Shown: piece by piece, positions 6,655-34,594 of the stretch
Position numbering within the stretch: position 1 is the first letter of the stretch
How the letters are laid out: the number at the start of each line of letters is the position of its first letter
DNA from: a virus
Virus record (IMG/VR): IMGVR_UViG_3300043640_000226
Coordinates: 1 to 42,632 of that record
Reading direction: 5' to 3' (one strand)
Length of the DNA stretch: 42,632 bases
The notes under the pieces: model-generated
What the model saw: only the letters and a program-made list of their open reading frames with translations
What the model was told of the DNA's origin: nothing
Database searches by the model: none
Position numbers and translations under genes: made by a program

Positions 6655-7542
6655 TCAGCCGATCGCAGCGGTCTCGAAGTTGATCTTCTCGACCTTCTGA
6701 TCCTCGGACGGGAGTTCGCCGATGCGAACCAGCCGCTGCCTGACGTACGGGTCCAGGGCAGCGTGCGCCTCCGGGTCGTCCGCCCGCACGTACTCGACCA
6801 TCCGGTCGAAGGTGGGGTTGGGGAAGATCTCGGGAGTGGACCCGGTTCGGTCCTTGCCCCGGAACTTGCCGACCGGCCGCGTGATCGCGGTGAATCGGCT
6901 CCGGTCCTTGGAGTCGCCCTCCTGCTGCTCGGTGTACGCGACCACGTCGACGTATCCGGCCAGGTCGCTGGCGAACGCAGGGGTGAGCGCGGGCCGGTAG
7001 AAGACTTCGCCACTCCCCTCCTTGTCCACGTCCCGCTTGGCCAGGCAGACGAACGCGGTGTGGCACGGCAGGTCGCGGAATCGTCGGCAGATGCGCCGAA
7101 CCATCTCGGTCATCTTGCCGTACTCGTCGCGGCCGACGTCGAACGGGTCGTCCGGGTTGGTCGCGCCGGAGGCCCTGGCCAGCCGTTCCGCCTTGGCGTG
7201 CCTGGCGTCCACGAGGGACTCGATCAGCTTCTTCTGGATCTCGGTCATCGAGTCGAAGACCGCGCCCGCGAAGAACGTCGGGTCGTCGTCCAGCTTTTCC
7301 TTCATCTGCCAGTACAGCGCGTCGAGGTCGTTGTAGCTCTCGACCGTGTAGGGCAGGATGTTCTCGGTCGGTACGCCCAGGCGTTGCAGCGGGCGCTTCT
7401 TCAGACCGGCCTCGGCGTCGATCACGACGACCTTACCGAGCAGCGCCATGTGGATTGCTGACGTGGTCTTGCCCGAGCCGGGATCGCCGTAGTACATGGC
7501 GTTCACGAACTCGTCGGTCTCATCCAGGGATTGCAGCGGCAT
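6655..7542 (-). CDS. Sak4-like AAA ATPase / single-strand annealing recombinase
   Basis: A 295-residue RecA-fold ATPase. Walker A GDPGSGKTT at 19-27, then VVVIDAEAG, and Walker B-like FAGAVFDSM at about 91-99. The size and motif order match the phage Sak4 / AAA_24 group, which promotes single-strand annealing together with a phage ssDNA-binding protein; that partner gene is directly downstream. The charged middle (VDARHAKAERLARASG) and TAFVCLAKRDVDKEG fit a RecA-like core. ATG 7540-7542 follows GGGAGA. Upstream lie a terminator and a tRNA-like minihelix, so its mRNA probably comes from read-through or processing of the tRNA-Glu transcript. Confidence 0.85.
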   Translation of the reverse strand: MPLQSLDETDEFVNAMYYGDPGSGKTTSAIHMALLGKVVVIDAEAGLKKRPLQRLGVPTENILPYTVESYNDLDALYWQMKEKLDDDPTFFAGAVFDSMTEIQKKLIESLVDARHAKAERLARASGATNPDDPFDVGRDEYGKMTEMVRRICRRFRDLPCHTAFVCLAKRDVDKEGSGEVFYRPALTPAFASDLAGYVDVVAYTEQQEGDSKDRSRFTAITRPVGKFRGKDRTGSTPEIFPNPTFDRMVEYVRADDPEAHAALDPYVRQRLVRIGELPSEDQKVEKINFETAAIG

Positions 7543-7603
7543 ATGGTTTCTCCCAATCTCTCTGACCCGTTCGGCCAGTTCGGCCAGGCTGAGTCGAGCC
7601 CAG

Positions 7604-7644
7604 TGGCGAGGTCAGGAATCGAACCTGTGCGCCAGTACCTCGCC
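7604..7644 (-). ncRNA. tRNA-like minihelix lacking D and anticodon arms
   Basis: A 41-nt element with a perfect 7-bp acceptor-type stem (GGCGAGG 7638-7644 / CCTCGCC 7605-7611), an unpaired A in the discriminator position (7604), and a T-arm with the classic loop (CAGG-TTCGATT-CCTG). About ten bases replace the D and anticodon arms. It is either a deleted tRNA or a minihelix that RNase P and RNase Z could recognise. It lies between a terminator and the Sak4-like gene. Confidence 0.5.
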
Positions 7645-7654
7645 TTGCTTTGAT

Positions 7655-7695
7655 GTGGGGCGGGCGGGTTCACCGCCAAGTGTCGCCCGCCCCAC
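7655..7695 (-). terminator. Terminator before tRNA-like minihelix
   Basis: A perfect 12-bp stem (GTGGGGCGGGCG / CGCCCGCCCCAC) with a 17-nt loop, 35 bases after the stop of the 42-residue gene. Confidence 0.75.
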
Positions 7696-7729
7696 GTGCC
7701 ACCTTGCGGCCGGGGTGTGGCGCCCCGCC

Positions 7730-7858
7730 TTAGCTCGGTTCCTCCCAGGTCCCGAGAGCCGCATTCAGTTGGTTGTGCGACGCGATTCCGTCGTGTGGAC
7801 CGGAATTCGCGCCAAGCTGTTGTGTGTCGGGGTACCCTCCCGACTCCCAGTCCTTCAT
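7730..7858 (-). CDS. Small hydrophilic protein (42 aa)
   Basis: A 42-residue frame from ATG (7856-7858) preceded by GGGTGG, ending TAA at 7730-7732 just before a strong terminator. The product begins MKDWESGGYPDTQQ and ends GTWEEPS. It is acidic and polar with no cysteines or membrane segment. Codon choice looks like that of the neighbours. It sits in the tRNA-Glu transcription unit. No family recognised; small size keeps confidence moderate. Confidence 0.5.
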   Translation of the reverse strand: MKDWESGGYPDTQQLGANSGPHDGIASHNQLNAALGTWEEPS

Positions 7859-8157: not shown

Positions 8158-8214
8158 CTGGACTTGGCCTCACCGTACCCGTTGCACGCCCGGGGTGGCG
8201 CGCTGGCACTGCCG

Positions 8215-8286
8215 TAGCATCAGCGGGGATCGAACCCGCGTCTTCGCCTTGAGAGGGCGACGGCCTAACCACTAGCCGATGATGCC
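8215..8286 (-). tRNA. tRNA-Glu (anticodon CUC)
   Basis: A 72-nt cloverleaf: acceptor GGCATCA / TGATGCT (first pair G-U), D stem GGCT/GGCC, anticodon stem TCGCC/GGCGA with loop CTCTCAA (anticodon CUC, reads GAG), 4-nt variable region, T arm GCGGG-TTCGATC-CCCGC, discriminator A. The 3' CCA is not encoded. It follows the promoter at 8359-8388. GAG is the dominant glutamate codon in these genes, so the tRNA may support late translation or survive host tRNA damage. Confidence 0.92.
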
Positions 8287-8399: not shown

Positions 8400-8816
8400 T
8401 TACCGGGCCTTGAACGAGTTGCAGCCCTTGAAGGTGACCACGCCGTCTTCCTTGGCGAGGGTGATCAGGACCTGGTCACCCGAGTTCGCGGTCTTCACCT
8501 GGGGCAGGGTGCTCGAACTGGTCGGCTTGGTGGTTACCGTGCACAGATCGAAGACCCCCTTCTTGGCGCCAGACGACCGGTACGTGCCCGCCGGGATGTC
8601 CTTGCCGACCTGATAATCGCCGTCCCCATAGGTGTCCATCTTCTGGGGAGCCTTGGTGCGCTTGGTCGGCGTGACCTTGGCCGCCGATTTGCTGGGCGAG
8701 CTGGACGCCTCGTGCTTGGAATCGGTCGACGCCGAGGTCGTGTCAGGTCCGCACGCTGCGAGCCCAACGAGGGCGGTGGCGGCAATGACTCCGGCGAGGA
8801 TGCTGCGAACCTTCAT
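8400..8816 (-). CDS. Secreted lipoprotein
   Basis: A 138-residue precursor. MKVRSILAGV begins a lipoprotein signal peptide, and LAAC is the lipobox, so the mature protein would be anchored by a lipidated cysteine on the outer face of the membrane. A Ser/Thr/Lys-rich linker follows, then a folded domain with YQVGKDIPAGTYRSSG and two cysteines (DLCTV, KGCNSF) that could form a disulfide; DIPAGTYR domains are common in actinobacterial secreted proteins. ATG 8814-8816 follows AGGGGAAATAAACAC; an in-frame extension upstream lacks these features. It has its own promoter (8878-8907). Phage surface lipoproteins often block superinfection; that role here is an inference. Confidence 0.8.
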   Translation of the reverse strand: MKVRSILAGVIAATALVGLAACGPDTTSASTDSKHEASSSPSKSAAKVTPTKRTKAPQKMDTYGDGDYQVGKDIPAGTYRSSGAKKGVFDLCTVTTKPTSSSTLPQVKTANSGDQVLITLAKEDGVVTFKGCNSFKAR

Positions 8817-8848
8817 GTGTTTATTTCCCCTAATTGGTGTGGCCTTCC

Positions 8849-8868
8849 GGCCGAGGTTGTCCCCGACC
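8849..8868 (-). other. mRNA 5' stem-loop of lipoprotein transcript
   Basis: An 8-bp stem (GGUCGGGG / CCUCGGCC, including G-U pairs; ACAA loop) starting near +4 of the transcript from the promoter 8878-8907. Confidence 0.55.
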
Positions 8869-8877
8869 AGAAAGGCC

Positions 8878-8907
8878 ACTCTACCATGCGGTTTGTCCCG
8901 GGCGCAA
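8878..8907 (-). promoter_or_regulatory. Promoter for lipoprotein gene
   Basis: -35 TTGCGC (8902-8907), 18-bp spacer ending GCATGG, -10 TAGAGT (8878-8883). It lies just past the stop of the nuclease gene at 8914. Predicted start near 8871. Confidence 0.7.
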
Positions 8908-24054: not shown

Positions 24055-24531
24055 TTAGCTTCCTGTGATCGGGTTGTCGATGATGGCGAGGGGGCCGTTG
24101 CCGGTCATCGTCGCGGAGACCTGGCCGAGCGCGGTGTACTCGCCACCCTGGTCTTCCCACTCGATGAGGCACTGACCTTCGTACGCCTCGGGCAGGCCGG
24201 TACGGTCGTAGAACCGCACGTGGACCTCGGAGGCCGAACCGGAGCCGAACGCGGCCAGTCGGATCGCCTCGTGCACGTCGTTGAAGACGAGAGTTTGGTC
24301 GTTGATCTTCCGGTTGAACGTGACGTCCAGCTCCCAGGACTGGCCCGTCTTGGTGTTCTCCATCCAGCCGTCCGAGTCGTAGGACGAGCTGTCCTCGATG
24401 TTGGGCGGGAAGGTGGGCTGGAACTCGGTGATGCCGATCATCGGCTGCCAGTCCGGTACGTCGCCGGTGCCCAGGTCGACTTCGAGCTTCCAGCGGCGGG
24501 CGAGAGCGGTGATGGGGGTGGGCGTAGACAC
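24055..24531 (-). CDS. Major tail (tube) protein (158 aa)
   Basis: A 158-residue protein just before the tail assembly chaperones. It has the beta-rich pattern of tube subunits (RRWKLEVDLGTGDVPDW, SWELDVTFNRKINDQTLVF, YTALGQVSATMTG). GTG 24529-24531 follows GGAGG. It polymerises around the tape measure to form the tail tube. Position and size make the assignment good. Confidence 0.85.
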   Translation of the reverse strand: MSTPTPITALARRWKLEVDLGTGDVPDWQPMIGITEFQPTFPPNIEDSSSYDSDGWMENTKTGQSWELDVTFNRKINDQTLVFNDVHEAIRLAAFGSGSASEVHVRFYDRTGLPEAYEGQCLIEWEDQGGEYTALGQVSATMTGNGPLAIIDNPITGS

Positions 24532-25350: not shown

Positions 25351-25668
25351 TCAATCGAGCGATACCTCGGTGTTGGCTGGCACGCTCATCTTCGGCCAGG
25401 TGGCGCGAGTTACCGAAATCACCTTACGGGCAACGCCGTCATCCAAGGTTACTCGGCTGTTCTCCGGCGGGTTGTGACCAGGTGCCGCGATGTAGCGGGA
25501 TGAGCTGCTGACGTCCTCGCCCTGGGCGTTGCGAACCATCTTGCTCTGCTCGACCAGCATGCAGGGCACCTCGTACGGGCGGCCGTAGACTTCGCCGACC
25601 GCGTTGGTGCCCAGGTAATTCTCGACCTGGACGTTGTGGCGCATCATGAAACCAGGTATTTGCCTCAT
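25351..25668 (-). CDS. Head-tail stopper protein (105 aa)
   Basis: A 105-residue beta-rich protein beginning MRQIPGFMMRHNVQVENYLG, with a closing VRKVISVTRATWPKMS-like strand region (read VARKVISVTRATWPKM). ATG 25666-25668 overlaps the connector stop (ATGA). Position, size and MMRHNVQVE fit head-tail stopper proteins (SPP1 gp16-like). A longer frame upstream is shadow sequence. Confidence 0.78.
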   Translation of the reverse strand: MRQIPGFMMRHNVQVENYLGTNAVGEVYGRPYEVPCMLVEQSKMVRNAQGEDVSSSSRYIAAPGHNPPENSRVTLDDGVARKVISVTRATWPKMSVPANTEVSLD

Positions 25669-26342
25669 CGCTGGTAGATCACTCCCGGAAGGATCCGCGC
25701 CCGGGTCAGTTCGCCCCAGGCTCTGGGTGGCAACTGGTTGGCGCGCACCTGGGTGGATTGCACGACGCCGCCGGGGCCAACGCCTCGGGTCACCAGGACA
25801 TCGCCAGCGCTGGCCGTCAGCCAGTCGCCGTCTGCGCCGATCGGGTCGCCGGTCTCGCCCCACCATTCGACTACCATGCAGCAGGCTTGCCGCAACGCCT
25901 CGCGCTGCTTCGGGGCGGCCGGGTAGCCGTCGTCGTCGGTGTAGTAGACCGCCGTCATCAGTGCGTCGTCCAGCACGCGGCTGGCCTCGCGCAGCAGATG
26001 TTCGGAGTCCAGCGGGGGCGCGGCCTGCAGATAGTTGGCCAGCTCAACGGTGTTGGCGTACACGCGGCGTGGCGTGGGGTCGACGTAATCCGGGCTGGGA
26101 GCAACCGAGATCTTCTCGAACTCGACCGATGCGCCTGTGCCCATCACGGTCCACTTGAACACCCAGATGCCTGGCAAGGTGTACTCGACTGGGGCGTTCC
26201 AGGTGTTGCCGCCGTCCTCGCTGAAAGCGACCGGCGTTTCGGACACGCCGTCCGGCGAGACCACTTCGAGTGTAGCTATTGTTGAGTCGTCGAATGGCTG
26301 CACCAGCAGGTTCGCGGTGACCAGGTCGCCAACATCGGTCAT
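25665..26342 (-). CDS. Head-tail adaptor with added N-terminal domain (225 aa)
   Basis: A 225-residue protein. The C-terminal half, from about residue 90 (RRVYANTVELANYLQAAP, LLREASRVLDDAL, PAAPKQREALRQACCMVVEW), has the helical pattern of HK97 gp6 / SPP1 gp15-like adaptors. The first ~85 residues form a beta-rich extra domain (ATLEVVSPDGVSETPVAFSE, LPGIWVFKWTVMGTG) resembling an Ig-like fold. ATG follows AGGAGG. It joins the portal to the stopper. Confidence 0.8.
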   Translation of the reverse strand: MTDVGDLVTANLLVQPFDDSTIATLEVVSPDGVSETPVAFSEDGGNTWNAPVEYTLPGIWVFKWTVMGTGASVEFEKISVAPSPDYVDPTPRRVYANTVELANYLQAAPPLDSEHLLREASRVLDDALMTAVYYTDDDGYPAAPKQREALRQACCMVVEWWGETGDPIGADGDWLTASAGDVLVTRGVGPGGVVQSTQVRANQLPPRAWGELTRARILPGVIYQR

Positions 26343-26343
26343 C

Positions 26344-29300
26344 TTAGCTGCCTCCTGTTGTGTGCGTCGCGACCAACGCGGGGGTTGTTGTACTCGCTCG
26401 TAGTGTGGGCCCGGTGACCCCTGGTACCAACGCAGGCCCTGTTGTGCTCGGGACCAACTGGTCGGCCGGGCGTTGGTGGGTCAGTGTGACCGGCCTGGCC
26501 ACTGTCACCGTTGCGGCTGCCAGCAGCAGGCGGTTCAGGTGGGGCAGCCGGGCCTCATGGGCCTCGACTACCTCGTGCGCCACACCGATCGACAGGCGTT
26601 TGCGCTGGATCGTGGGCCGACCCAGTTCTACTGCGCCACTGCCCCCCAGTGTCAACCGCCTGCTGGCGCGCTGTGGGTGGGCGACGTTGCGTTCGGCCGC
26701 CCTGCCCAGTTTGCCTTGGTGCTGGTCTTTCAGATCGCGGCCAGCGTCAACGGTGCGCGACAGGCCGAGATGCGCCGTCCGGCGGTGGGTAACTGGCCGG
26801 GCGGTCGCCTGGTCGGACGCCGCGCCCAATCTGCGCACCTTAGCGATGTGCAGCGCGCTGACCGCGATCTGTTCGGTGGCCTCGCCGAGCCGGAGAGTCG
26901 CTGACGAGACCACCGCCTCCACCTGGTCGATGGTCCGGGCAGGACCGACCGGGGAAGTTTTGAGGGCGGCGGTTGGCTGACCCGCCTCCTGCGTGGTCGC
27001 CGCACCAAGCCGGAATAGCTTGCTTGCGGTTGCCGAATTTGACTGGTCTTGTGTGTTGGCTGCCGACGACCCGTTGGTCTTGCTGGGCGTGACCCGGTGG
27101 CTACCGGCCGTTTCGGCTGCCAGTCCGAGCTGACCCTGGATCTTGACCGTGCCCGCGTGCGCGGTTTCCCGCACGCCAGCCGCGCCCAGGCTGCCCGTCT
27201 TCCGGGCCTCCGTGGTACCTCCGGCGGCCTGCTCCCGGGCCGGAGCCGCGTGGTACCGGCGGCTGTGCCCAAGGCCCTCCGCAGTGGTCTCCGTGGCCGC
27301 CGCGCCGATCGGGATTATGTGACCCGTGAACGTCAGGTGCGCCCGGTCGGCCGCGCTGGCCGATCCAATGTGCGCCAGCCTGCTGTGCCCGACCGCGTGC
27401 GCCGTGTCGACCGACCTGGCCGGGTCGATCTGCTCCGCATGGTCGTGCTCGACCTTGGTCGCCGACGACTTCTCGGCTGCCACCCCCAGCGGGTAGAACT
27501 GGAGGAACGTGACCGCATGCGCTTGGTCGGCCGTCCGTGCCGCGCCCGGGTGGGCGGCCTGCTCGAACGTGACCGCCTCGGTTACAGCGGCTTCATGCGC
27601 GGCCCCCAACGGGTAGAACTGCCGGAACGCGATGTCGTGTGCCGTTGTGGCTGTCGCTGCCGCGACCAGGTGCGCGGTGTGGTTGTGCGATACGGCCAAG
27701 GCCGCGTCGCCAGCCTGAGCAGCGGGCAGGGTGGCGGACTTCGACGTTGTGACCGCGTGTGCGGTCTCGCTGGCGGCCGAGCCGACCAGGTGTGCGGTGC
27801 TGCTGGCGACAACCTCGGTTGCCGACTCCTCGGTTCCGGAGATCAGCAGCGGATAGAACTGTCGGAAGGTGACCGCGTTGGCCTGGCTGATCGACTCTGC
27901 TAGACCCAGGTCGATAAGGCGGGATGGCGCCGCTCCCCCCGCGTGATCTGCCGTCTCTGCTCGACCAACTGTGACAACGCGACTGACGTCGAGTCCGTGC
28001 GCACTGGTCGTGGTTGCAGCGTGACCGAGCGTGTAGGTCTTGCGGCTGGCCAGCGCGTGCGCGCTCTCCCGGGTGGCCGCAGGCGCCAGGTGGCCGTCGC
28101 GGCGGTGCAGGACGGGGTGTCCGGCTGTCTTCTCCCCTGCCGGGGCCACTGAGGACCGGCGGCTGTGCGAGAGCGCCCGGGAGACGTCCTCCGTGGCCGC
28201 GCGCCCTATCGACGCGTGTCGGGAGTGCCCGACCGTGTGAACGGCCGACTCTTCCCGAGCCACGCCCAGGTCGACAACGGTGACCGCCGGTGCGAGCTGG
28301 TTGACGTTGTCGAACTCGGCGAAGTCGTCTGTGCCGCCGGTTCGGTGCGCCAGCAGGTGGATCGACAGGTCATTGTCGCCGACCCATGACGGGGAGGTCG
28401 CGGTGCGGCGGGTAGTCCAGGTGACGCCGTCGACCGAGGTCTGGAACGTGATGCTGCCGGACGACTCGGCGATTCGCCACCAGGCGTGGAGAACCGGGTC
28501 GTACACGACGCCAGCCTGGTCGGGGTCAGTGAACGCGCTGCGCACGGCCGTGAACAGCGTTCCGGTGACCGCGTCGCAGAACATGACCGCGTCGGTGCCT
28601 GACGTCGTGGTGGTGACCATCAACTGGGTGAATGCCTCGGTCGCCGCGCCGCCTTTGGCAGCGGGGAACACCTGGCAGCCGACGTGGCTGTTCTTCAGCG
28701 TGTACGCCGCGTCGGTCGAGAACTCGGGGAAGGTGGCGTCACACGGCACCCTGCCGCGCCCGCCGACCTGGGAGACGCCGCTGGCGTTCGGCCAGTTGTC
28801 CGCATCGATCGTGCCGCCGGTGAAGCCATCCACCAGGTCAGCCGTCGGGATGCCGGGTTCCTCGGGCGGCTCTACCGGCCCCGGCAGCCCGTTGTCCGTC
28901 GACCCGGTGCTGTCGTTGACCGCAATGTCATCGAAGTAGATGTCAGCCGTGGTCGGGTTGGCCATGCCGAACCGGGCGATGCCACCGTTACCCAGGCTGA
29001 CGCCTGTCAGCGAGCAGAACTGGACGCCGTCGAGAGAGCCCTTAAGTGTGCCTGCCGTGTCGTTGTAGTCCATCTCGACCATGTACCAACGGTTCAGCGC
29101 CAGCGCCGGGGAACTGGCGCCGCCCTCACTGCCTGCCGACGTATCGCCGGATGCCGCGCCGAACAGGGTGCGGTTGGCCGCCAACTTAAGGCAATAGAAC
29201 GATGATGCTGTGGTGCCTGGGTCGTCGTCCCAGACCACGACGCCGGTAGGACCGGCGGGCGCTGTGGCGATGTACATATAGCAGCGCAGGAAAACGTGCG

Positions 29301-29475
29301 CTGCTTTGTCTGTCGGGAATATTCGCTTGTTTACCGTCTGAGCCGACGAACTGGTGGGGTGGCAACGCAGCGAATGAGTGCCAGAGTTCGCTTGGGTGGT
29401 GACAACGGTGGGCGACCCGACGAACGCGTCCCACTCGGTTCCGGCTTCGAAACCGGTGGTCCATATGCGCGCCAT
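26344..29475 (-). CDS. Giant repeat fibre: two LamG-like domains + 30 x 20-aa repeats (1043 aa)
   Basis: Residues 1-190 and about 205-395 are two LamG/concanavalin-like sandwiches (RWYMVEMDYNDTAGTLKGSL, SVDGVTWTTRRT) that may bind sugar. Residues 403-1002 are thirty consecutive 20-residue units with no insertion or deletion; each begins LG or IG, has A at position 4, acidic residues near 6-8, AHAV near 10-13 and SR near 16-17. A short TTGPAL/VTGPTL tail ends the protein. It lies in the head module, between coat and connector genes, not in the tail module, so a capsid-attached fibre is likely. Similar LG-A-E repeats occur in other actinophage virion proteins. ATG 29473-29475. Confidence 0.85.
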   Translation of the reverse strand: MARIWTTGFEAGTEWDAFVGSPTVVTTQANSGTHSLRCHPTSSSAQTVNKRIFPTDKAAHVFLRCYMYIATAPAGPTGVVVWDDDPGTTASSFYCLKLAANRTLFGAASGDTSAGSEGGASSPALALNRWYMVEMDYNDTAGTLKGSLDGVQFCSLTGVSLGNGGIARFGMANPTTADIYFDDIAVNDSTGSTDNGLPGPVEPPEEPGIPTADLVDGFTGGTIDADNWPNASGVSQVGGRGRVPCDATFPEFSTDAAYTLKNSHVGCQVFPAAKGGAATEAFTQLMVTTTTSGTDAVMFCDAVTGTLFTAVRSAFTDPDQAGVVYDPVLHAWWRIAESSGSITFQTSVDGVTWTTRRTATSPSWVGDNDLSIHLLAHRTGGTDDFAEFDNVNQLAPAVTVVDLGVAREESAVHTVGHSRHASIGRAATEDVSRALSHSRRSSVAPAGEKTAGHPVLHRRDGHLAPAATRESAHALASRKTYTLGHAATTTSAHGLDVSRVVTVGRAETADHAGGAAPSRLIDLGLAESISQANAVTFRQFYPLLISGTEESATEVVASSTAHLVGSAASETAHAVTTSKSATLPAAQAGDAALAVSHNHTAHLVAAATATTAHDIAFRQFYPLGAAHEAAVTEAVTFEQAAHPGAARTADQAHAVTFLQFYPLGVAAEKSSATKVEHDHAEQIDPARSVDTAHAVGHSRLAHIGSASAADRAHLTFTGHIIPIGAAATETTAEGLGHSRRYHAAPAREQAAGGTTEARKTGSLGAAGVRETAHAGTVKIQGQLGLAAETAGSHRVTPSKTNGSSAANTQDQSNSATASKLFRLGAATTQEAGQPTAALKTSPVGPARTIDQVEAVVSSATLRLGEATEQIAVSALHIAKVRRLGAASDQATARPVTHRRTAHLGLSRTVDAGRDLKDQHQGKLGRAAERNVAHPQRASRRLTLGGSGAVELGRPTIQRKRLSIGVAHEVVEAHEARLPHLNRLLLAAATVTVARPVTLTHQRPADQLVPSTTGPALVPGVTGPTLRASTTTPALVATHTTGGS
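26470..28269 (-). repeat. Thirty in-frame 60-bp repeats within the fibre gene
   Basis: Coding repeats of exactly 60 bp, diverged at the DNA level but strictly in register. Three units contain near-identical FRQFYPL or FLQFYPL segments (units 7, 11 and 13), which suggests recent exchange between units. Confidence 0.85.
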
Positions 29476-29505
29476 CGGGTCACCGCCTCCTGCGTTGTGT
29501 TGTGG

Positions 29506-29871
29506 TTACGGCTTGTTGGGGTTGGGTCGATCGATCGCGGTGGTGCTTACCGCCGTGTTGCGATAACCGGGGTAGTCCGGGTCATCCGGTTCCGCAATCC
29601 AGCGATAGCTGGCCTCTTGTCCTCGGGCCAACACGTATCCCTGAGCCTCGAGCCCGGCGATCATGTCCCGAATGAACCACTCCCGGCGCTCCTCCGTTTC
29701 GCCGTCGCGGAACACCACGTAGGAGTACATGACGTGTTGGTTCTGCTCTGCCGAACCGGCGGTAGGAGCGACCCACCACTTCAGCTGATACATTGGGTAC
29801 GGGTTCTCTACCTCAACCGCCAGGTTCTGCAGCGGGTTAGGCTCCGGCGGGTCATCGGGAGGTGTGGACAT
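29506..29871 (-). CDS. Hypothetical head-region protein (121 aa)
   Basis: A 121-residue acidic, proline-rich protein (MSTPPDDPPEPNPLQ). The middle is aromatic-rich (YQLKWWVAPTAG, VMYSYVVFRDGETEE) and the C-terminal half contains GLEAQGYVLARGQEASYRWI. ATG 29869-29871 follows AAGGGG. It is in the head module between a structural gene and the fibre gene. No family recognised; a role in fibre attachment is only a guess. Confidence 0.75.
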   Translation of the reverse strand: MSTPPDDPPEPNPLQNLAVEVENPYPMYQLKWWVAPTAGSAEQNQHVMYSYVVFRDGETEERREWFIRDMIAGLEAQGYVLARGQEASYRWIAEPDDPDYPGYRNTAVSTTAIDRPNPNKP

Positions 29872-29879
29872 GTAACCCC

Positions 29880-30332
29880 TTACGCGTCGGACGAGGTGGC
29901 GAGGCCAGCCGCGTCGATCTGAACCGTGATGTCGGTGCCATCAGGCGAAACCGCGAAGTCGTGCATCGTCAGCGGAATGACGGCCGTGTCGTTGGCGCCC
30001 GCCGTGGTGTCCGGGTTGTAGCAGACGACCAGCTTGCCGGTAGCGTTGCCCGTGGCCGCCGTCCAGGTGACGTCAGCACAGTCGATCGACGCCGTGTTCG
30101 CGACGTCGTTCTGGGTGCTGGTGACGCTGGTCAGCGTCTTGCGACCCATCGTGGTCTGCTCGTTGCTGGCGCCCGCCAGCAGGAGCGACAGGTTGTCGTA
30201 GTCCTGCAGCGCGTCGTCCGATTCGAGGCCGGTGGCCTCCAGCACAACGGCGATGAGAGCGTCGTTGGTGGCCGGGAGGGTGGCGTAGTACGCGAACCGA
30301 CCCTTGCCGATGTTGGTGACCACGTTGGCCAT
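29880..30332 (-). CDS. Putative capsid decoration / structural protein (150 aa)
   Basis: A 150-residue Ala/Thr-rich protein (MANVVTNIGKGRFAYYATLP, TWTAATGNATGKLVVCYNPD, IPLTMHDFAVSPDGTDITVQ), beta-dominated. ATG 30330-30332 follows AGGAG. Proteins of this look are common after coat genes in actinophages and are usually called structural. Decoration of the capsid surface is an inference from position. Confidence 0.75.
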   Translation of the reverse strand: MANVVTNIGKGRFAYYATLPATNDALIAVVLEATGLESDDALQDYDNLSLLLAGASNEQTTMGRKTLTSVTSTQNDVANTASIDCADVTWTAATGNATGKLVVCYNPDTTAGANDTAVIPLTMHDFAVSPDGTDITVQIDAAGLATSSDA

Positions 30333-30344
30333 GACGTTGGGCTC

Positions 30345-30734
30345 CTAGCTGTAGATCTCGATGAGTTCGGGCTTGGTGAGTCGCTCGGCGTCCTCGCGGG
30401 AACAGCCGCCCTCGATTGCCCAGTTGACCCAGGCTTCCTTGGTTGCGCCCTTGGCCGGTCGGTTCTTCGGGTCCGGGCCGACAGGAGCGGTCTGGGACGC
30501 GGGCACATCCCAATCGGCATCCGGAGCAGGCAGGGTCGCACCACGCTCTTCGAGCGGAGTGTCGCCGACCTGGGGCTGGCCGAGCAGACCGCCGTTGCCA
30601 GCGGGAGCGGCCTCGGGCTCCGGCTCGCCGTCGACCAGCTTGTCCCAGTTCTGCAGGTATTCGAGACGCGCGTTGGGGCGCGAGTACTCGACGACCTCGG
30701 TGGTGTTCTTGTTGCGGTAACGGTGGCTGGTCAT
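30345..30734 (-). other. Internal start giving a separate 129-aa head protein
   Basis: An in-frame ATG at 30732-30734 (residue 233 of the fused glycosyltransferase gene) is preceded by GGAAGG at 7 bases. The product starts MTSHRYRNKNTTEVVEYSRP and ends with an acidic, helical AWVNWAIEGGCSREDAERLT followed by KPELIEIYS. Free-standing proteins of this appearance occur after coat genes in other actinophages. The gene may thus yield both a fused and a separate product. Confidence 0.5.
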
Positions 30735-31430
30735 CACGTAACCTTCCAGAGGAGTTGGGCAGAATTCCGAGATCAGGGCGCGCATCGCGGGCTGATTGCC
30801 CGCCGCCTGCTGGTACTGGCGGTAGCGCGCCCTACCCGCATCCGACCCAATTTCTCGGGACAGTCGTTCCTGCGGCTGGTGCCACAAGTGGGTCAACCAG
30901 GTGTTGCCCCGCCAAGCTGGTCCGGCGAGGGTGTTCAGGGCCAGCGCCCAGGATTCGTCCTCCTGGCCCCAGCCGCTGAACGCGGGGTCGATCGGGACGC
31001 CTTCGAGGACTTCGCGAGTGAGGACCGTCAGGCCGCCACCCTGCGTTGCAACGTGAACCTCCAGCGCGTTGCCGGGTCGCTCCAGCACGCGCGTGCCGTT
31101 CAGCAGGTCGGCCGTTGTCTTCTCGCTCAGGCGATGTACGGCCAGCTGCGGGACAGCCCACTTAGCTTGGCCTTGTTGCACGGCCACAACGGCGTCGGCA
31201 ACGCGGTCGCACCAGATGTCGGCGTCGGCAACGATCAGGATGTCGGCGTCGGTCTGCGACAGGGCGTCCTTGATGGCCTCGGCCTTGCGCCACCCGCCCT
31301 CGGTGCGATCCCGCCCGGTGAACACGGGCCAGTCTCGGTGGGCGACCTGCCAACGCTCCAGCAGGTACGCCCAAACCTGGGCGCGTTGTGGATCGCTGGT
31401 GTCGAACGGGACCAGAACGGCAACGCTCAC
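30345..31430 (-). CDS. Glycosyltransferase fused to a head-module domain (361 aa)
   Basis: Residues 1 to about 230 form a GT-A glycosyltransferase: LVPFDT at the start, GWRKAEAIKDAL, the DxD motif in IVADADIW (69-71), and FSGWGQEDESW, like the GWGxED acceptor-side motif of galactosyltransferase-type enzymes. From residue 233 onward the sequence changes to a separate domain starting MTSHRYRN with a Pro/Glu-rich linker and a helical end. It should transfer a sugar from an activated donor, probably to a virion protein. GTG 31428-31430 overlaps the stop of the methyltransferase gene. The fusion to a virion-type domain is unusual. Confidence 0.82.
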   Translation of the reverse strand: MSVAVLVPFDTSDPQRAQVWAYLLERWQVAHRDWPVFTGRDRTEGGWRKAEAIKDALSQTDADILIVADADIWCDRVADAVVAVQQGQAKWAVPQLAVHRLSEKTTADLLNGTRVLERPGNALEVHVATQGGGLTVLTREVLEGVPIDPAFSGWGQEDESWALALNTLAGPAWRGNTWLTHLWHQPQERLSREIGSDAGRARYRQYQQAAGNQPAMRALISEFCPTPLEGYVMTSHRYRNKNTTEVVEYSRPNARLEYLQNWDKLVDGEPEPEAAPAGNGGLLGQPQVGDTPLEERGATLPAPDADWDVPASQTAPVGPDPKNRPAKGATKEAWVNWAIEGGCSREDAERLTKPELIEIYS

Positions 31431-32074
31431 AGCAGGTCACCTCGCTGGAACACAACATCGCGAACTTCGCCGCCGGTGACCTTCTGCTGGCGATTGCCGC
31501 GCGCCCACTTGTTGACGAAGTCGTAATCCCGGACCCACCGGTCGACCTCGACGAATCCGTGCGTTGTGACGACCTCGGTCACCAGGTCGTACGGGCTGGC
31601 CATTGTGGAATCGTCCTCGGTGCACGACTCCACGATCAGCAGTTCGAGGCTGTCCCAGGGCGCGCCCTCCAGCACCTCAAGTTCGAGGCCCTGAGCGTCG
31701 ATCACCGCTACCTTGGCGTTGGGCGCGATGGCGTCAAGCCGTCGCGTCTGCACCAGGTAACTGTCGACCACTTGGTCGCGTGACTGTGGGGCCACCAGCG
31801 TCGACATGTTGGTTTTGGCCATCACGTGGAGCTGGGCCAACTCGTTGTCGCGGTCGGTGCACGCGGCCTCGACCACCTCGGTCATTGGGAACCGGGTGCG
31901 CAGCTGCCGAGCCAGGTCGGGGATGGGCTCCACCAGTGTGATGTTGGTGAACCCGGCCTCGTAGTAGTACGGCATCTCTTGGCCTTCGTGCGCGCCCACG
32001 TGGACGAGCTGGCCGGAGGGGTCGACCCCCAGGCGCCTAATCAGGCCCGGGAAGGCCGCCATCACGTTACCCAT
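31427..32074 (-). CDS. FkbM-family methyltransferase (215 aa)
   Basis: A 215-residue S-adenosylmethionine-dependent methyltransferase. SAM-binding motif VHVGAHEG at about 24-31, LVEP at 47-50, and the FkbM-type IDAQGLELEVLEGA at about 125-138. FkbM enzymes O-methylate sugars and small molecules. ATG 32072-32074 follows GAGGAC and overlaps the preceding gene by 13 bases; the stop overlaps the glycosyltransferase start. Context says it methylates the sugar added by the neighbouring transferases. Confidence 0.88.
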   Translation of the reverse strand: MGNVMAAFPGLIRRLGVDPSGQLVHVGAHEGQEMPYYYEAGFTNITLVEPIPDLARQLRTRFPMTEVVEAACTDRDNELAQLHVMAKTNMSTLVAPQSRDQVVDSYLVQTRRLDAIAPNAKVAVIDAQGLELEVLEGAPWDSLELLIVESCTEDDSTMASPYDLVTEVVTTHGFVEVDRWVRDYDFVNKWARGNRQQKVTGGEVRDVVFQRGDLL

Positions 32075-32751
32075 TGTTTAGTCCTCGTCGCCGGGTGCCG
32101 CTCGTAGTCGGCCGGGAAGTCGATGTCGTCGGTCCAATCGTTGATCTCGACGAACCACGGCTGGCAGACGATGTGCTCGTTGAGCGGCGTGCCCTGGATT
32201 GAGCGCAACAGCGTCCAGCCGTCACGCCTCTTGGATTCGCCATTGTGGAACGCCTGCACGACGCGGGCGAGATGGCGGTCTAGCATGTTGTGACAGTTGG
32301 GCCAGAACGACACGGCGAAGATCTCGCCGTACGGTGTGCCTGTCTGTTGTGACCCCATGTACCGGCCGAACACCCGATAAGTCTTGGCTGCCTGGTGATG
32401 TCCCCGGATCGCGCGCATTGCGCGGTCGGTGAAATAGACGTCGCCCAGCAGCAGGACAGTTGGACCGGTGGTCGACCACAGATCGCGGCTCGCCAGGTAC
32501 TCGTTGCCGAAGTCGCCTGGCGAGCGCTCGTGCGTGGCAACACCCGGCAGCCTGTACCGGTCGTCGCCTGGGGGCGCGGTGAGGTGCACGTCCGGGCCGA
32601 GCCTGTCAAAGGCCTGCCGGACTGTGCGGTGCAACAGCAGCTCCTTGCCGCCTGCCCGCAGTGGGTCGCGGACCGGAACCAGATGTGAGGGTACACCGAG
32701 GTGGTTTCCCCACTTGTGCTGGCTGCCGGATGCCGCGACGATCACCCGCAC
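32062..32751 (-). CDS. Nucleotidyltransferase/GT-A-like protein (229 aa)
   Basis: A 229-residue protein. The opening RVIVAASGSQHKWGNHLGVP followed by SHLVPV and ELLLHRTVRQAFD resembles the first strand, loop and acceptor region of sugar nucleotidyltransferases and GT-A enzymes, and LLLGDVYFTDRAM matches the acidic metal-binding strand. GTG 32749-32751 overlaps the end of the preceding gene. The canonical GxGxR loop is not intact, so donor activation is only likely, not shown. It belongs to the four-gene sugar cluster. Confidence 0.65.
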   Translation of the reverse strand: MRVIVAASGSQHKWGNHLGVPSHLVPVRDPLRAGGKELLLHRTVRQAFDRLGPDVHLTAPPGDDRYRLPGVATHERSPGDFGNEYLASRDLWSTTGPTVLLLGDVYFTDRAMRAIRGHHQAAKTYRVFGRYMGSQQTGTPYGEIFAVSFWPNCHNMLDRHLARVVQAFHNGESKRRDGWTLLRSIQGTPLNEHIVCQPWFVEINDWTDDIDFPADYERHPATRTKQWVT

Positions 32752-33668
32752 TGGAACACGACCTCTTGAATCTGTTGCAACCGGTGGATGAACAGATGTC
32801 GATCGCGCACCAGGTCGAGGGCGTTCTGCCGCATCGTTGTGCGGTCGTGGTCGGTCAGTGCGGACAGCTGGTCGCCGAGTCCGGCGAAGTCGAAGCGGTC
32901 GAACAACACCGCCACTTCCCCCGTTATCCCTTGACCCTCGAATCCAACAGTGTTGGGGTGGGCCAGCAGGCCGCCGCGACCGAGCACCGAGGGCACCCGG
33001 TCCGACCAGTATCGGTCGGCCGGGGCGCTGTCCCCCAGCACGGTTCGGGTGGACGCGCACAGGTGGCTGAGGTCAGCGCCCCACACCTGGGTCATGCCGC
33101 CGAACATCCGGAACGACCGACCCCATTTGGTGGTGGCCCAGTCGAGCAGCTGCCGCCGGTGCTCGCCGTGTATGGCCCGGAGGTTGGAGCCGGTGAACAC
33201 CGCGTCCAGCGCGCCGAATGCTGGGCTAGGTCGGCCAGCCCCCAGCCAGCGATGGCCGAGAGCGGGCGGCATCCAGTAATGGTTGACCCCGCGCGCCGCG
33301 AATTCGGCCTGGTGCCCGCCGTCCGCAGTGAACACGAACTGGTGGGACCACCAGGGGTCGACGCCGATCTGGTCTTCCCGGGTGCCCAGGCCCCAGTACA
33401 GGTCGAAGTGCACGCCGACCGTTGGGGTGCCTGAGTCCTCGATCCGGCGGAGCATGCCGTGGAGGTCGCCCTCCGGGTAGTGCCCGTGGGTGCGCGCCCA
33501 GATGAACAGGTCGCACCCGGCCGAGACCCGAACCACCTGGTCGGTGGTCAAGCCCCTGGCCGGTAGATGCAAAACGTCCCAGCCCAGCGCCACCCCCGCC
33601 TCTGCCATGTCGTCTTTCCAACGATTCAGGTGAAGAGGCCGGGGCGCGCCGAGTAGGACGACTCGCAT
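32742..33668 (-). CDS. CgeB-like GT-B glycosyltransferase (308 aa)
   Basis: A 308-residue protein of the CgeB / glycosyl transferases group 1 type. MRVVLLGAPRPLHLNRW begins the N-terminal Rossmann-like domain; DLFIWARTHG and FTADGGHQAEFAARGV lie in the middle; and the C-terminal domain has VPSVLGRGGLLAHPNTVGFE, then EVAVLFDRFD, the donor-side signature of CgeB proteins. The ATG (33666-33668) shares bases with the coat protein stop (TGATG), so its synthesis is tied to coat synthesis. It probably glycosylates the coat or another virion protein. Confidence 0.82.
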   Translation of the reverse strand: MRVVLLGAPRPLHLNRWKDDMAEAGVALGWDVLHLPARGLTTDQVVRVSAGCDLFIWARTHGHYPEGDLHGMLRRIEDSGTPTVGVHFDLYWGLGTREDQIGVDPWWSHQFVFTADGGHQAEFAARGVNHYWMPPALGHRWLGAGRPSPAFGALDAVFTGSNLRAIHGEHRRQLLDWATTKWGRSFRMFGGMTQVWGADLSHLCASTRTVLGDSAPADRYWSDRVPSVLGRGGLLAHPNTVGFEGQGITGEVAVLFDRFDFAGLGDQLSALTDHDRTTMRQNALDLVRDRHLFIHRLQQIQEVVFQCG

Positions 33669-34594
33669 CAGCTGCCCGCAGGGCCCTGGATGAGGACCGC
33701 ACGGTTCGGGTCCAGAACCTTGGTGCCGTACAGGCAGTCGATCGAGACGACGTCCTGCTTCTTGTCCACGTCGTAGTCGTACACGACGCGCAGGCCGAAG
33801 CCCTTGTAGTTGGCGATAGCCGCGTTGGCTGCGCCCCTGGGGAGGGCGAGCGGGCGGAACGCCAGGGCCAGCGCGGTCTGGTGGAACGCGATGCCCGTCT
33901 CGGTCGAGGAACCGCCGACGCCGGGGGCCGGAACGTTCTGCGACTGGTACGCGTCGAAGCCGTACACCCGCCGACCGAGGTTGGCCTCACGCAGGCCCTC
34001 GGTGTCGCCGCGCGTGTCCGCACGGATGAAGAACGGGTCGCCCATCCACGAGGCCGTGGTGATCGGGCCGAGAACCAGGCGGCGGCCGGTGATCGGCACG
34101 TTGCGCTGGGTCAGGACACGACCGGCGTCGATCGCGGCCTTCGGGTCGTCGTAGCGCCAGCCGTTCTCGCCCGGGAGCGGGGAGTTCGTACCGTCGACCA
34201 CGCCGACCGTCTGGCTGATGTCGGCCGACAGCGCCATGATGTCGCGGTCGATCTTCTGGCTGATGGCTTCCATCGCCGGGTTCAGCAGCTGCTGGCCGAA
34301 GTCCAGCACGTTCAGGGTGAGGTCCTCGGACGTGACCGCGAACGACACGTCGGCGAAGTGGTTCAGCGTCAGAGGAACGCCGGTCTCCGTCGCGTTCTGA
34401 ACGTTGATACCGGCAGTGCGGTTGTACTCCTGCGCGGTGAACGTGGTGGGCTTCCGGATGGTGATGGTGTCGCCGACCTGCTGGAACTCCTGCTCGTAGT
34501 CCCGGTAGACGAGTCCGGCCATGACCGTGGTCTCGTACAGGGTGGCGAGCGCAGCGCGCGCGATGATGTCAGGGGTAAGGAACGTGTTGGCCAT
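33668..34594 (-). CDS. Major capsid protein, P22 coat-like (308 aa)
   Basis: A 308-residue coat protein. MANTFLTPDIIARAALATLY, EFQQVGDTITIRKPTTFTAQ, and SEDLTLNVLDFGQQLLNPAM match the P22 coat-like group of HK97-fold proteins. ATG 34592-34594 follows GGAGG. It comes after the scaffold gene and forms the icosahedral shell. The stop is coupled to the first glycosyltransferase. Confidence 0.92.
   Translation of the reverse strand: MANTFLTPDIIARAALATLYETTVMAGLVYRDYEQEFQQVGDTITIRKPTTFTAQEYNRTAGINVQNATETGVPLTLNHFADVSFAVTSEDLTLNVLDFGQQLLNPAMEAISQKIDRDIMALSADISQTVGVVDGTNSPLPGENGWRYDDPKAAIDAGRVLTQRNVPITGRRLVLGPITTASWMGDPFFIRADTRGDTEGLREANLGRRVYGFDAYQSQNVPAPGVGGSSTETGIAFHQTALALAFRPLALPRGAANAAIANYKGFGLRVVYDYDVDKKQDVVSIDCLYGTKVLDPNRAVLIQGPAGS

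Follow-up and report, generated by a model that had tools for sequence, protein, structure and literature searches.

A Putative Virion Glycosylation Cassette behind the Coat Gene of a Streptomyces Siphovirus, with the C-Terminal Serines of Coat and Tail Tube as Predicted Acceptors

RESULTS

The 42,632-bp IMG/VR virus record IMGVR_UViG_3300043640_000226, analyzed here over its whole length (the window), belongs to a soil Streptomyces siphovirus related to Hiyaavirus. Its structural block runs on the minus strand, as do all the window features described below, from the terminase (40.3 kb) to the endolysin (14 kb). Our analysis indicates that the genes directly behind the coat gene very probably form a phage-encoded virion glycosylation cassette, in which the C-terminal serines (Ser) of the coat and tail tube proteins would be the acceptors, a GT-B glycosyltransferase (GT), a MobA-like protein, and an FkbM methyltransferase would act as helpers, and a GT-A glycosyltransferase domain is built as an extension of a head protein. 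A first-pass annotation of this DNA had missed two of these points, the tail tube as a second likely acceptor and the fusion of GT-A to a head protein. The comparison set comprised about 30 related phages, a few dozen sequences found mostly through similarity to GT-A or to p150 (a small virion protein encoded downstream), in which some of the GT assignments are based on similarity only.

The C-terminal serine of coat and tail tube accompanies the cassette

In mycobacteriophages, glycans have been reported at the C termini of capsid and tail tube subunits (PMC12619734), including the coat and tail tube C termini of cluster O phages (PMC11600133), and the capsid of Che8 has also been reported as glycosylated (PMC11256854). 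For this reason, we compared the C termini of the corresponding proteins here. The P22-type major capsid (coat) protein of the window (33668 to 34594; 308 amino acids [aa]; Pfam P22_CoatProtein, E value of 4.3e-41; PHROG 283 major head, 7e-69) ends in ...QGPAGS*, with the Gly-Ser codons, including that of the predicted acceptor, at 33671 to 33676. The major tail (tube) protein, a putative second acceptor (24055 to 24531; 158 aa; ortholog of Keanu gp18 major tail protein), ends in ...NPITGS* (Gly-Ser codons at 24058 to 24063).

A terminal Ser was present in the coat proteins of all 11 GT-A cassette phages but of none of the 12 cassette-less relatives (Fisher test, 7e-7), and in the tail tube proteins of 9 of 9 cassette phages versus 0 of 13 others (Fisher test, 2e-6). 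No such split with the cassette was found in 15 other families of virion or packaging proteins. A tree of the coats places at least four gains or losses of the cassette on well-supported branches, and the Ser end followed row for row, which argues that the pattern is not the product of one inherited event. The closest contrast was between the coats of L073 (...GADVAS*, with cassette) and Galactica (...GADVA*, without it). In further phages, every coat encoded beside GT-A likewise ended in Ser. Together with those of Che8, Firecracker, and Kradal, these Ser-ending coats number 30 and form 18 clusters at 70% identity. They span at least five families without detectable similarity to each other (the L083 coat was assigned by gene position). 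In Che8 and Firecracker, both coat and tail tube end in Ser. The coats of Rooney and Kradal also end in Ser, while those of D29, R4, Kromp, and Zuko do not, and in L006 and L044, with a partial cassette that has no GT-A domain, the coats end in Ala.

The GT-A domain of the window is homologous to Firecracker gp35 (hhalign, 96%, E value of 1.5e-9; blastp, 1.4e-9, within a set of four sequences and not as a database search), which is annotated as a polypeptide N-acetylgalactosamine (GalNAc) transferase. Together, this homology and the Ser correlation make the terminal Ser of the coat and the tail tube the most likely glycan site. Judged from these sequences, glycosylation of the coat by phage-encoded enzymes is strongly supported, and the tail tube is a likely second target. 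The terminal-Ser rule itself may be partly known already.

Enzymes of the cassette

The first-pass annotation had listed a coat gene followed by a CgeB-like glycosyltransferase, a nucleotidyltransferase (NTase)-like protein, an FkbM methyltransferase, and a GT-A glycosyltransferase, and all of them were found in place, with matches in Pfam, PHROG, or NCBIfam. The junctions from coat to GT-A are tight, with overlaps of 1 to 13 nucleotides (nt) (TGATG, GTGA, a 13-nt overlap, and GTGA). The CgeB-like GT-B enzyme (32742 to 33668; 308 aa) matched Pfam Glyco_trans_1_2 (5e-7) and PHROG 28745 glycosyltransferase (2.4e-121). The GTG start of the next gene, coding for a relative of MobA-like NTP transferases (32062 to 32745; 227 aa; PHROG 33187, function unknown, 4e-76), overlaps the GT-B stop. 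This window protein had no Pfam match itself, while its homolog in L011 matched NTP_transf_3 (PF12804) at 1.8e-8, with 35.2 bits for a cutoff of 27, and Rooney gp32 reached 18.9 bits against the same cutoff. The FkbM-family methyltransferase (31427 to 32074; 215 aa) was above the curated cutoffs of both PF05050 (6.7e-8; 33.3 versus 22.7) and TIGR01444 (2.2e-12; 47.7 versus 37.7) and has the S-adenosylmethionine (SAM) motif VHVGAHEGQE. Against PDB sequences, profiles of GT-A and of the NTase-like protein gave marginal matches only.

A search of gene neighborhoods, which had been proposed as a check, recovered the order coat-GT-NTase-FkbM-GT-A in several Streptomyces prophages at ca. 45 to 60% protein identity, indicating that the arrangement is not due to chance. 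Of the relatives compared, L057 is a prophage of S. coelicoflavus NBRC 15399 and L056 one of S. tendae JCM 4610. The fusions NTase-FkbM (L006) and NTase-GT-head protein (L011 and L012) point to a single pathway. In L006, the cassette sits between the portal/protease genes and a coat of a different family, and L072 has GT-B, FkbM, and NTase-GT behind a coat of a third family. The genes for GT-B, the NTase-like protein, and FkbM keep together as a unit, which recurs in the Rooney/Yara/Dryad group beside a tail-fiber-like gene. FkbM is part of most full cassettes (L011 and L012 are without it). Of the O-methylated capsid glycan originally suggested, a glycan on the coat is favored by the Ser correlation and the GT-A homology, while its O-methylation is plausible. 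As a separate case, L044 (1530 to 4062) and L046 have a coat of the PHROG 2263 family followed by an FkbM methyltransferase and p150, with no GT and with a coat end other than Ser.

From these data, a scheme can be proposed in which the GT-A domain would start the glycan by linking a sugar to the hydroxyl group of the terminal Ser in the coat and tail tube proteins, the acceptor being the strongly inferred part. Going by family and constant linkage, the GT-B enzyme would extend the glycan, the MobA-like protein would probably supply the activated sugar, and the FkbM enzyme would probably cap the glycan by O-methylation.

The GT-A domain is fused to a head protein

The fourth enzyme (30345 to 31430) had been described as a plain GT-A glycosyltransferase. 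It does contain a GT-A domain (residues 1 to ca. 230, with motifs DAD and GWGQED; PHROG 1721 galactosyl transferase, 6e-16), but as the N-terminal extension, in one reading frame, of a small head protein (residues ca. 233 to 361). The last 66 residues of the latter (295 to 360) match PHROG 2322 “head-tail connector protein” (1.4e-10). In cassette-less relatives, the head part is a free gene of ca. 125 aa directly behind the coat gene, whose stop codon it overlaps by 1 to 4 nt in four of them (L014, L016, L018, and L025), and it is therefore a head protein by position. The single open frame joining GT-A and head part was present in the window, L027/L057, L055, L056, L058, L059, L060, L067, L011, and L012 and, distantly, in L082, i.e., the fusion is kept in about nine related lineages. 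Most other phages carrying the GT-A domain have it unfused. The GT-A/head protein profile matched 7 of 394 Streptomyces genomes, 2 of the 7 through the head protein part only.

Within the fusion gene, an internal ATG opens the head protein part (30345 to 30734) at the place where stand-alone homologs begin (MIRYRNHNTGD...), with a Shine-Dalgarno sequence, GGAAGG, 7 nt upstream (30742 to 30747; CTGGAAGGTTACGTG followed by ATG). All fusions but the divergent L082 have at the joint a Shine-Dalgarno-like stretch (GGAGGG or AAGGG in the others) and a start codon no more than 3 bases from the start of the free gene, e.g., CTGGAGGGATCACCG followed by ATG. GGA and TCA are often found at the joint, codons that each account for just 7% of those for Gly or Ser in these genes, suggesting either selection at the DNA level or a recent common ancestor. 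Thus read, the gene probably gives two products, the GT-head protein and, through the internal ribosome-binding site, a free head protein, and the fusion may retain some of the enzyme where the head is being assembled. Lambda C/Nu3 is a known case of nested head genes, where internal initiation within a longer enzyme gene yields a head protein in the same frame. The arrangement is alike, although there the pair is a protease and a scaffold and here a glycosyltransferase and a head protein. L082 (2585 to 9158) has an even larger glycosylation block, in which a P22-type coat gene is followed by several small glycosyltransferase-like genes, the GT-A/head protein fusion, and the adaptor.

p150 and the long fiber-like protein share the slot

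As already annotated, two small genes and a 1,043-residue LamG/repeat protein precede the head-to-tail adaptor (25665 to 26342; PHROG 541, 2e-8; ortholog of Keanu gp14), at which the slot ends. The fiber-like protein (26344 to 29475; PHROG 14065, 2e-98) has two β-sandwich domains (residues ca. 4 to 190 and 208 to 395), mostly of high AlphaFold confidence and with Foldseek matches to lectin, laminin-G, and carbohydrate-binding module folds. Some 30 copies of an exact 20-residue repeat gave autocorrelations of 0.49 (lag 20) and 0.66 (lag 40), versus a shuffle maximum of −0.24. A one-chain solenoid was considered for the repeat region, where the AlphaFold predicted local distance difference test (pLDDT) score of ca. 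28 favors neither this fold nor another. Between this gene and p150 there is a 121-aa orphan, p121 (29506 to 29871), with no family match in Pfam or PHROG and no detectable relative beyond a near-identical contig.

For the small β-rich virion protein p150 (29880 to 30332), 44 relatives were found in viral contigs, in most cases adjoining a related fiber gene. The protein (AlphaFold pLDDT, 84) had no match in the PDB by sequence or fold. In a viral structure library, the best matches were uncharacterized proteins and a virion protein of phage 7-7-1 (E value of 5e-4), followed by weaker matches to tail-collar fiber proteins. The modeled fold is thus suggestive of a fiber-associated protein and does not tell head from tail. 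Many actinophages have the p150-fiber pair downstream of the coat gene. In L030, p150 is found a few genes behind the tape measure gene, and in Pseudanabaena phage Pam4, it follows the baseplate gene, in the tail module. The Pam4 homolog (L053, 10001 to 10447), between baseplate and polysaccharide lyase genes, is 58% identical to a Streptomyces phage protein, a striking cross-phylum occurrence of a fiber-associated protein in a cyanophage. In L017 (4408 to 16108) and L040 (3863 to 15469), p150 and fiber-like genes lie between FtsK/SpoIIIE-like and terminase genes, with unrelated head genes.

Cassette and fiber each occur without the other. In L056 and L067, the full cassette leads straight to the adaptor, with no p150 or fiber, and eight relatives (L010, L013, L014, L016, L018, L019, L022, and L025) have the head protein, p150, and fiber without the cassette. 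By gene content, the p150-fiber pair is an independent, swappable virion module that shares the slot. The fiber was also considered as a necessary target of the glycan, which the fiber-less cassettes rule out, together with the fact that a C-terminal Ser of the fiber does not track the cassette.

Comparison with known systems

The nearest experimental counterpart is the virion O-glycosylation of mycobacteriophages (Che8 and the cluster O/Corndog group) that Freeman et al. reportedly described in 2023. There, the GT-A is homologous, the cluster O enzymes are encoded among the head genes together with a methyltransferase, and both coat and tail tube end in Ser, their C termini being the reported glycan sites. 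The partners differ, being a CgeB-like GT-B, a MobA-like protein, and FkbM in the window instead of gp33, gp34, and gp36, and the three window proteins showed no significant similarity to cluster O gp33 (O-methyltransferase), gp34, or gp36. Besides, the window cassette follows the coat gene, whereas the cluster O enzymes are placed between portal and protease, and in the window the GT is joined to a head protein.

Hiyaavirus phages (Keanu, Hiyaa, and Galactica) share the coat, head protein, p150, fiber, and adaptor in the same order. In contrast, they have no GT-B, NTase, or GT domain, their FkbM is short with a decayed SAM motif, the coat ends in Ala, and the tail tube ends in Pro or Ala. Given the missing GT domain, the decayed FkbM, and the Ala end of the coat, Hiyaavirus looks like a relic of the cassette. 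In L001 (Hiyaavirus; 6857 to 7785), the place of the cassette behind the coat is occupied by the small proteins gp8 and gp9, possible capsid decoration proteins. The Rooney/Gibson/Yara/Dryad group shares GT-B, the NTase-like gene, and FkbM in unchanged order (ca. 47 to 56% identity), but beside a tail-fiber-like gene after the endolysin and without a GT-A fusion.

Capsid fibers or spikes such as phi29 gp8.5 and SPP1 gp12 bind cell surfaces (PMC7602432). The window fiber resembles these and that of phage 7-7-1 in being an elongated virion protein. However, a place on the head is suggested for it by gene position only, it has lectin-like N-terminal domains and 20-aa repeats, and the fold of the accompanying p150 also resembles tail-collar fiber proteins.

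Other features of the window

Elsewhere in the window, a gene at 8400 to 8879 codes for a small secreted lipoprotein-like protein, with a lipobox (LAAC) after a signal-like start. It had only weak PHROG matches of unknown function and could be a superinfection exclusion lipoprotein. Beside it is a tRNA-Glu (CTC) gene (8214 to 8286), the sole tRNA found in the window.

DISCUSSION

Several observations weigh against a cassette acting on the two terminal serines. The C-terminal residues were compared after the groups were known, and the test was therefore unplanned. In the Rooney group, coat and tail tube end in Ser with GT-B, NTase, and FkbM beside the tail fiber gene, and a GT-A was undetectable there with the GT-A/head alignment profile A3, which did not match in Che8 either. 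Ser ends thus do not need exactly this glycosyltransferase. The tail tube of Yara does not end in Ser. In the alignment of NTase-like proteins, the phosphate-binding Lys of the PK motif is absent from the window protein (PSH in the window, L027, and L006; SSH in Rooney; PKH only in L011 and L012), which leaves a plain nucleotidyltransferase role uncertain for it. Finally, tethering of the enzyme to the head gives no account of how the tail tube is reached.

Among the alternatives, the first-pass annotation had favored a single capsid decoration system in which the cassette decorates coat and long fiber jointly, with the fiber on the head. The gene order, with the p150-fiber pair behind the coat gene in many relatives, fits such a system, but we regard it as improbable, given the phages that carry only one of the two modules, a fiber C terminus indifferent to the cassette, and the tail module location of p150 in Pam4. 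It is also conceivable that the target of the cassette is the host surface (for receptor masking or superinfection exclusion) and that its position is just a permissive slot. Phage glycosyltransferases can indeed change host serotypes during lysogeny (PMC12619734), and the three-gene part is located elsewhere in the Rooney group. Nevertheless, the location in a late structural operon, overlapping the coat gene by 1 to 13 nt, the failure to see a flippase or polymerase within the cassette, and the fact that coats and tail tubes ending in Ser would be left unexplained make this very improbable.

A different question is whether the GT-A/head protein fusion is just an accident that followed the loss of a stop codon. 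In that case, the internal start would supply the head protein, and the head part attached to the enzyme would have no function. The conserved internal Shine-Dalgarno sequence and start agree with this, as does the unfused state of the GT domain in most other phages. On the other hand, about nine lineages have kept the frame open despite a sequence divergence of ca. 50%, the distant L082 is also fused, and no second copy of the head protein was seen in these loci, so we consider an accident rather unlikely. Retaining the glycosylation cassette as the preferred explanation, we tentatively put forward a broader and clearly less certain proposal, that C-terminal -(Gly/Ala/Leu/Val)-Ser may be a portable glycosylation tag, gained by unrelated coats and tail tubes along with one GT-A family, and that in this Streptomyces lineage the enzyme may have become part of a head protein, giving a virion or an assembly intermediate equipped with a glycosyltransferase of its own.

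Experimental evidence of virion glycosylation in phages exists for a few mycobacteriophages. Separating the cassette from the p150-fiber module corrects a tempting misreading of the gene order. If our interpretation is correct, the phenomenon would also be found in phages and prophages of Streptomyces and in many uncultivated phages whose coats are unrelated, and the combination of this GT-A family with coat and tail tube proteins ending in Ser would predict from sequence which virions are glycosylated, which proteins are modified, and the likely residue. The fusion of a glycosyltransferase to a head protein would then represent a novel route for delivering a modifying enzyme to the capsid.

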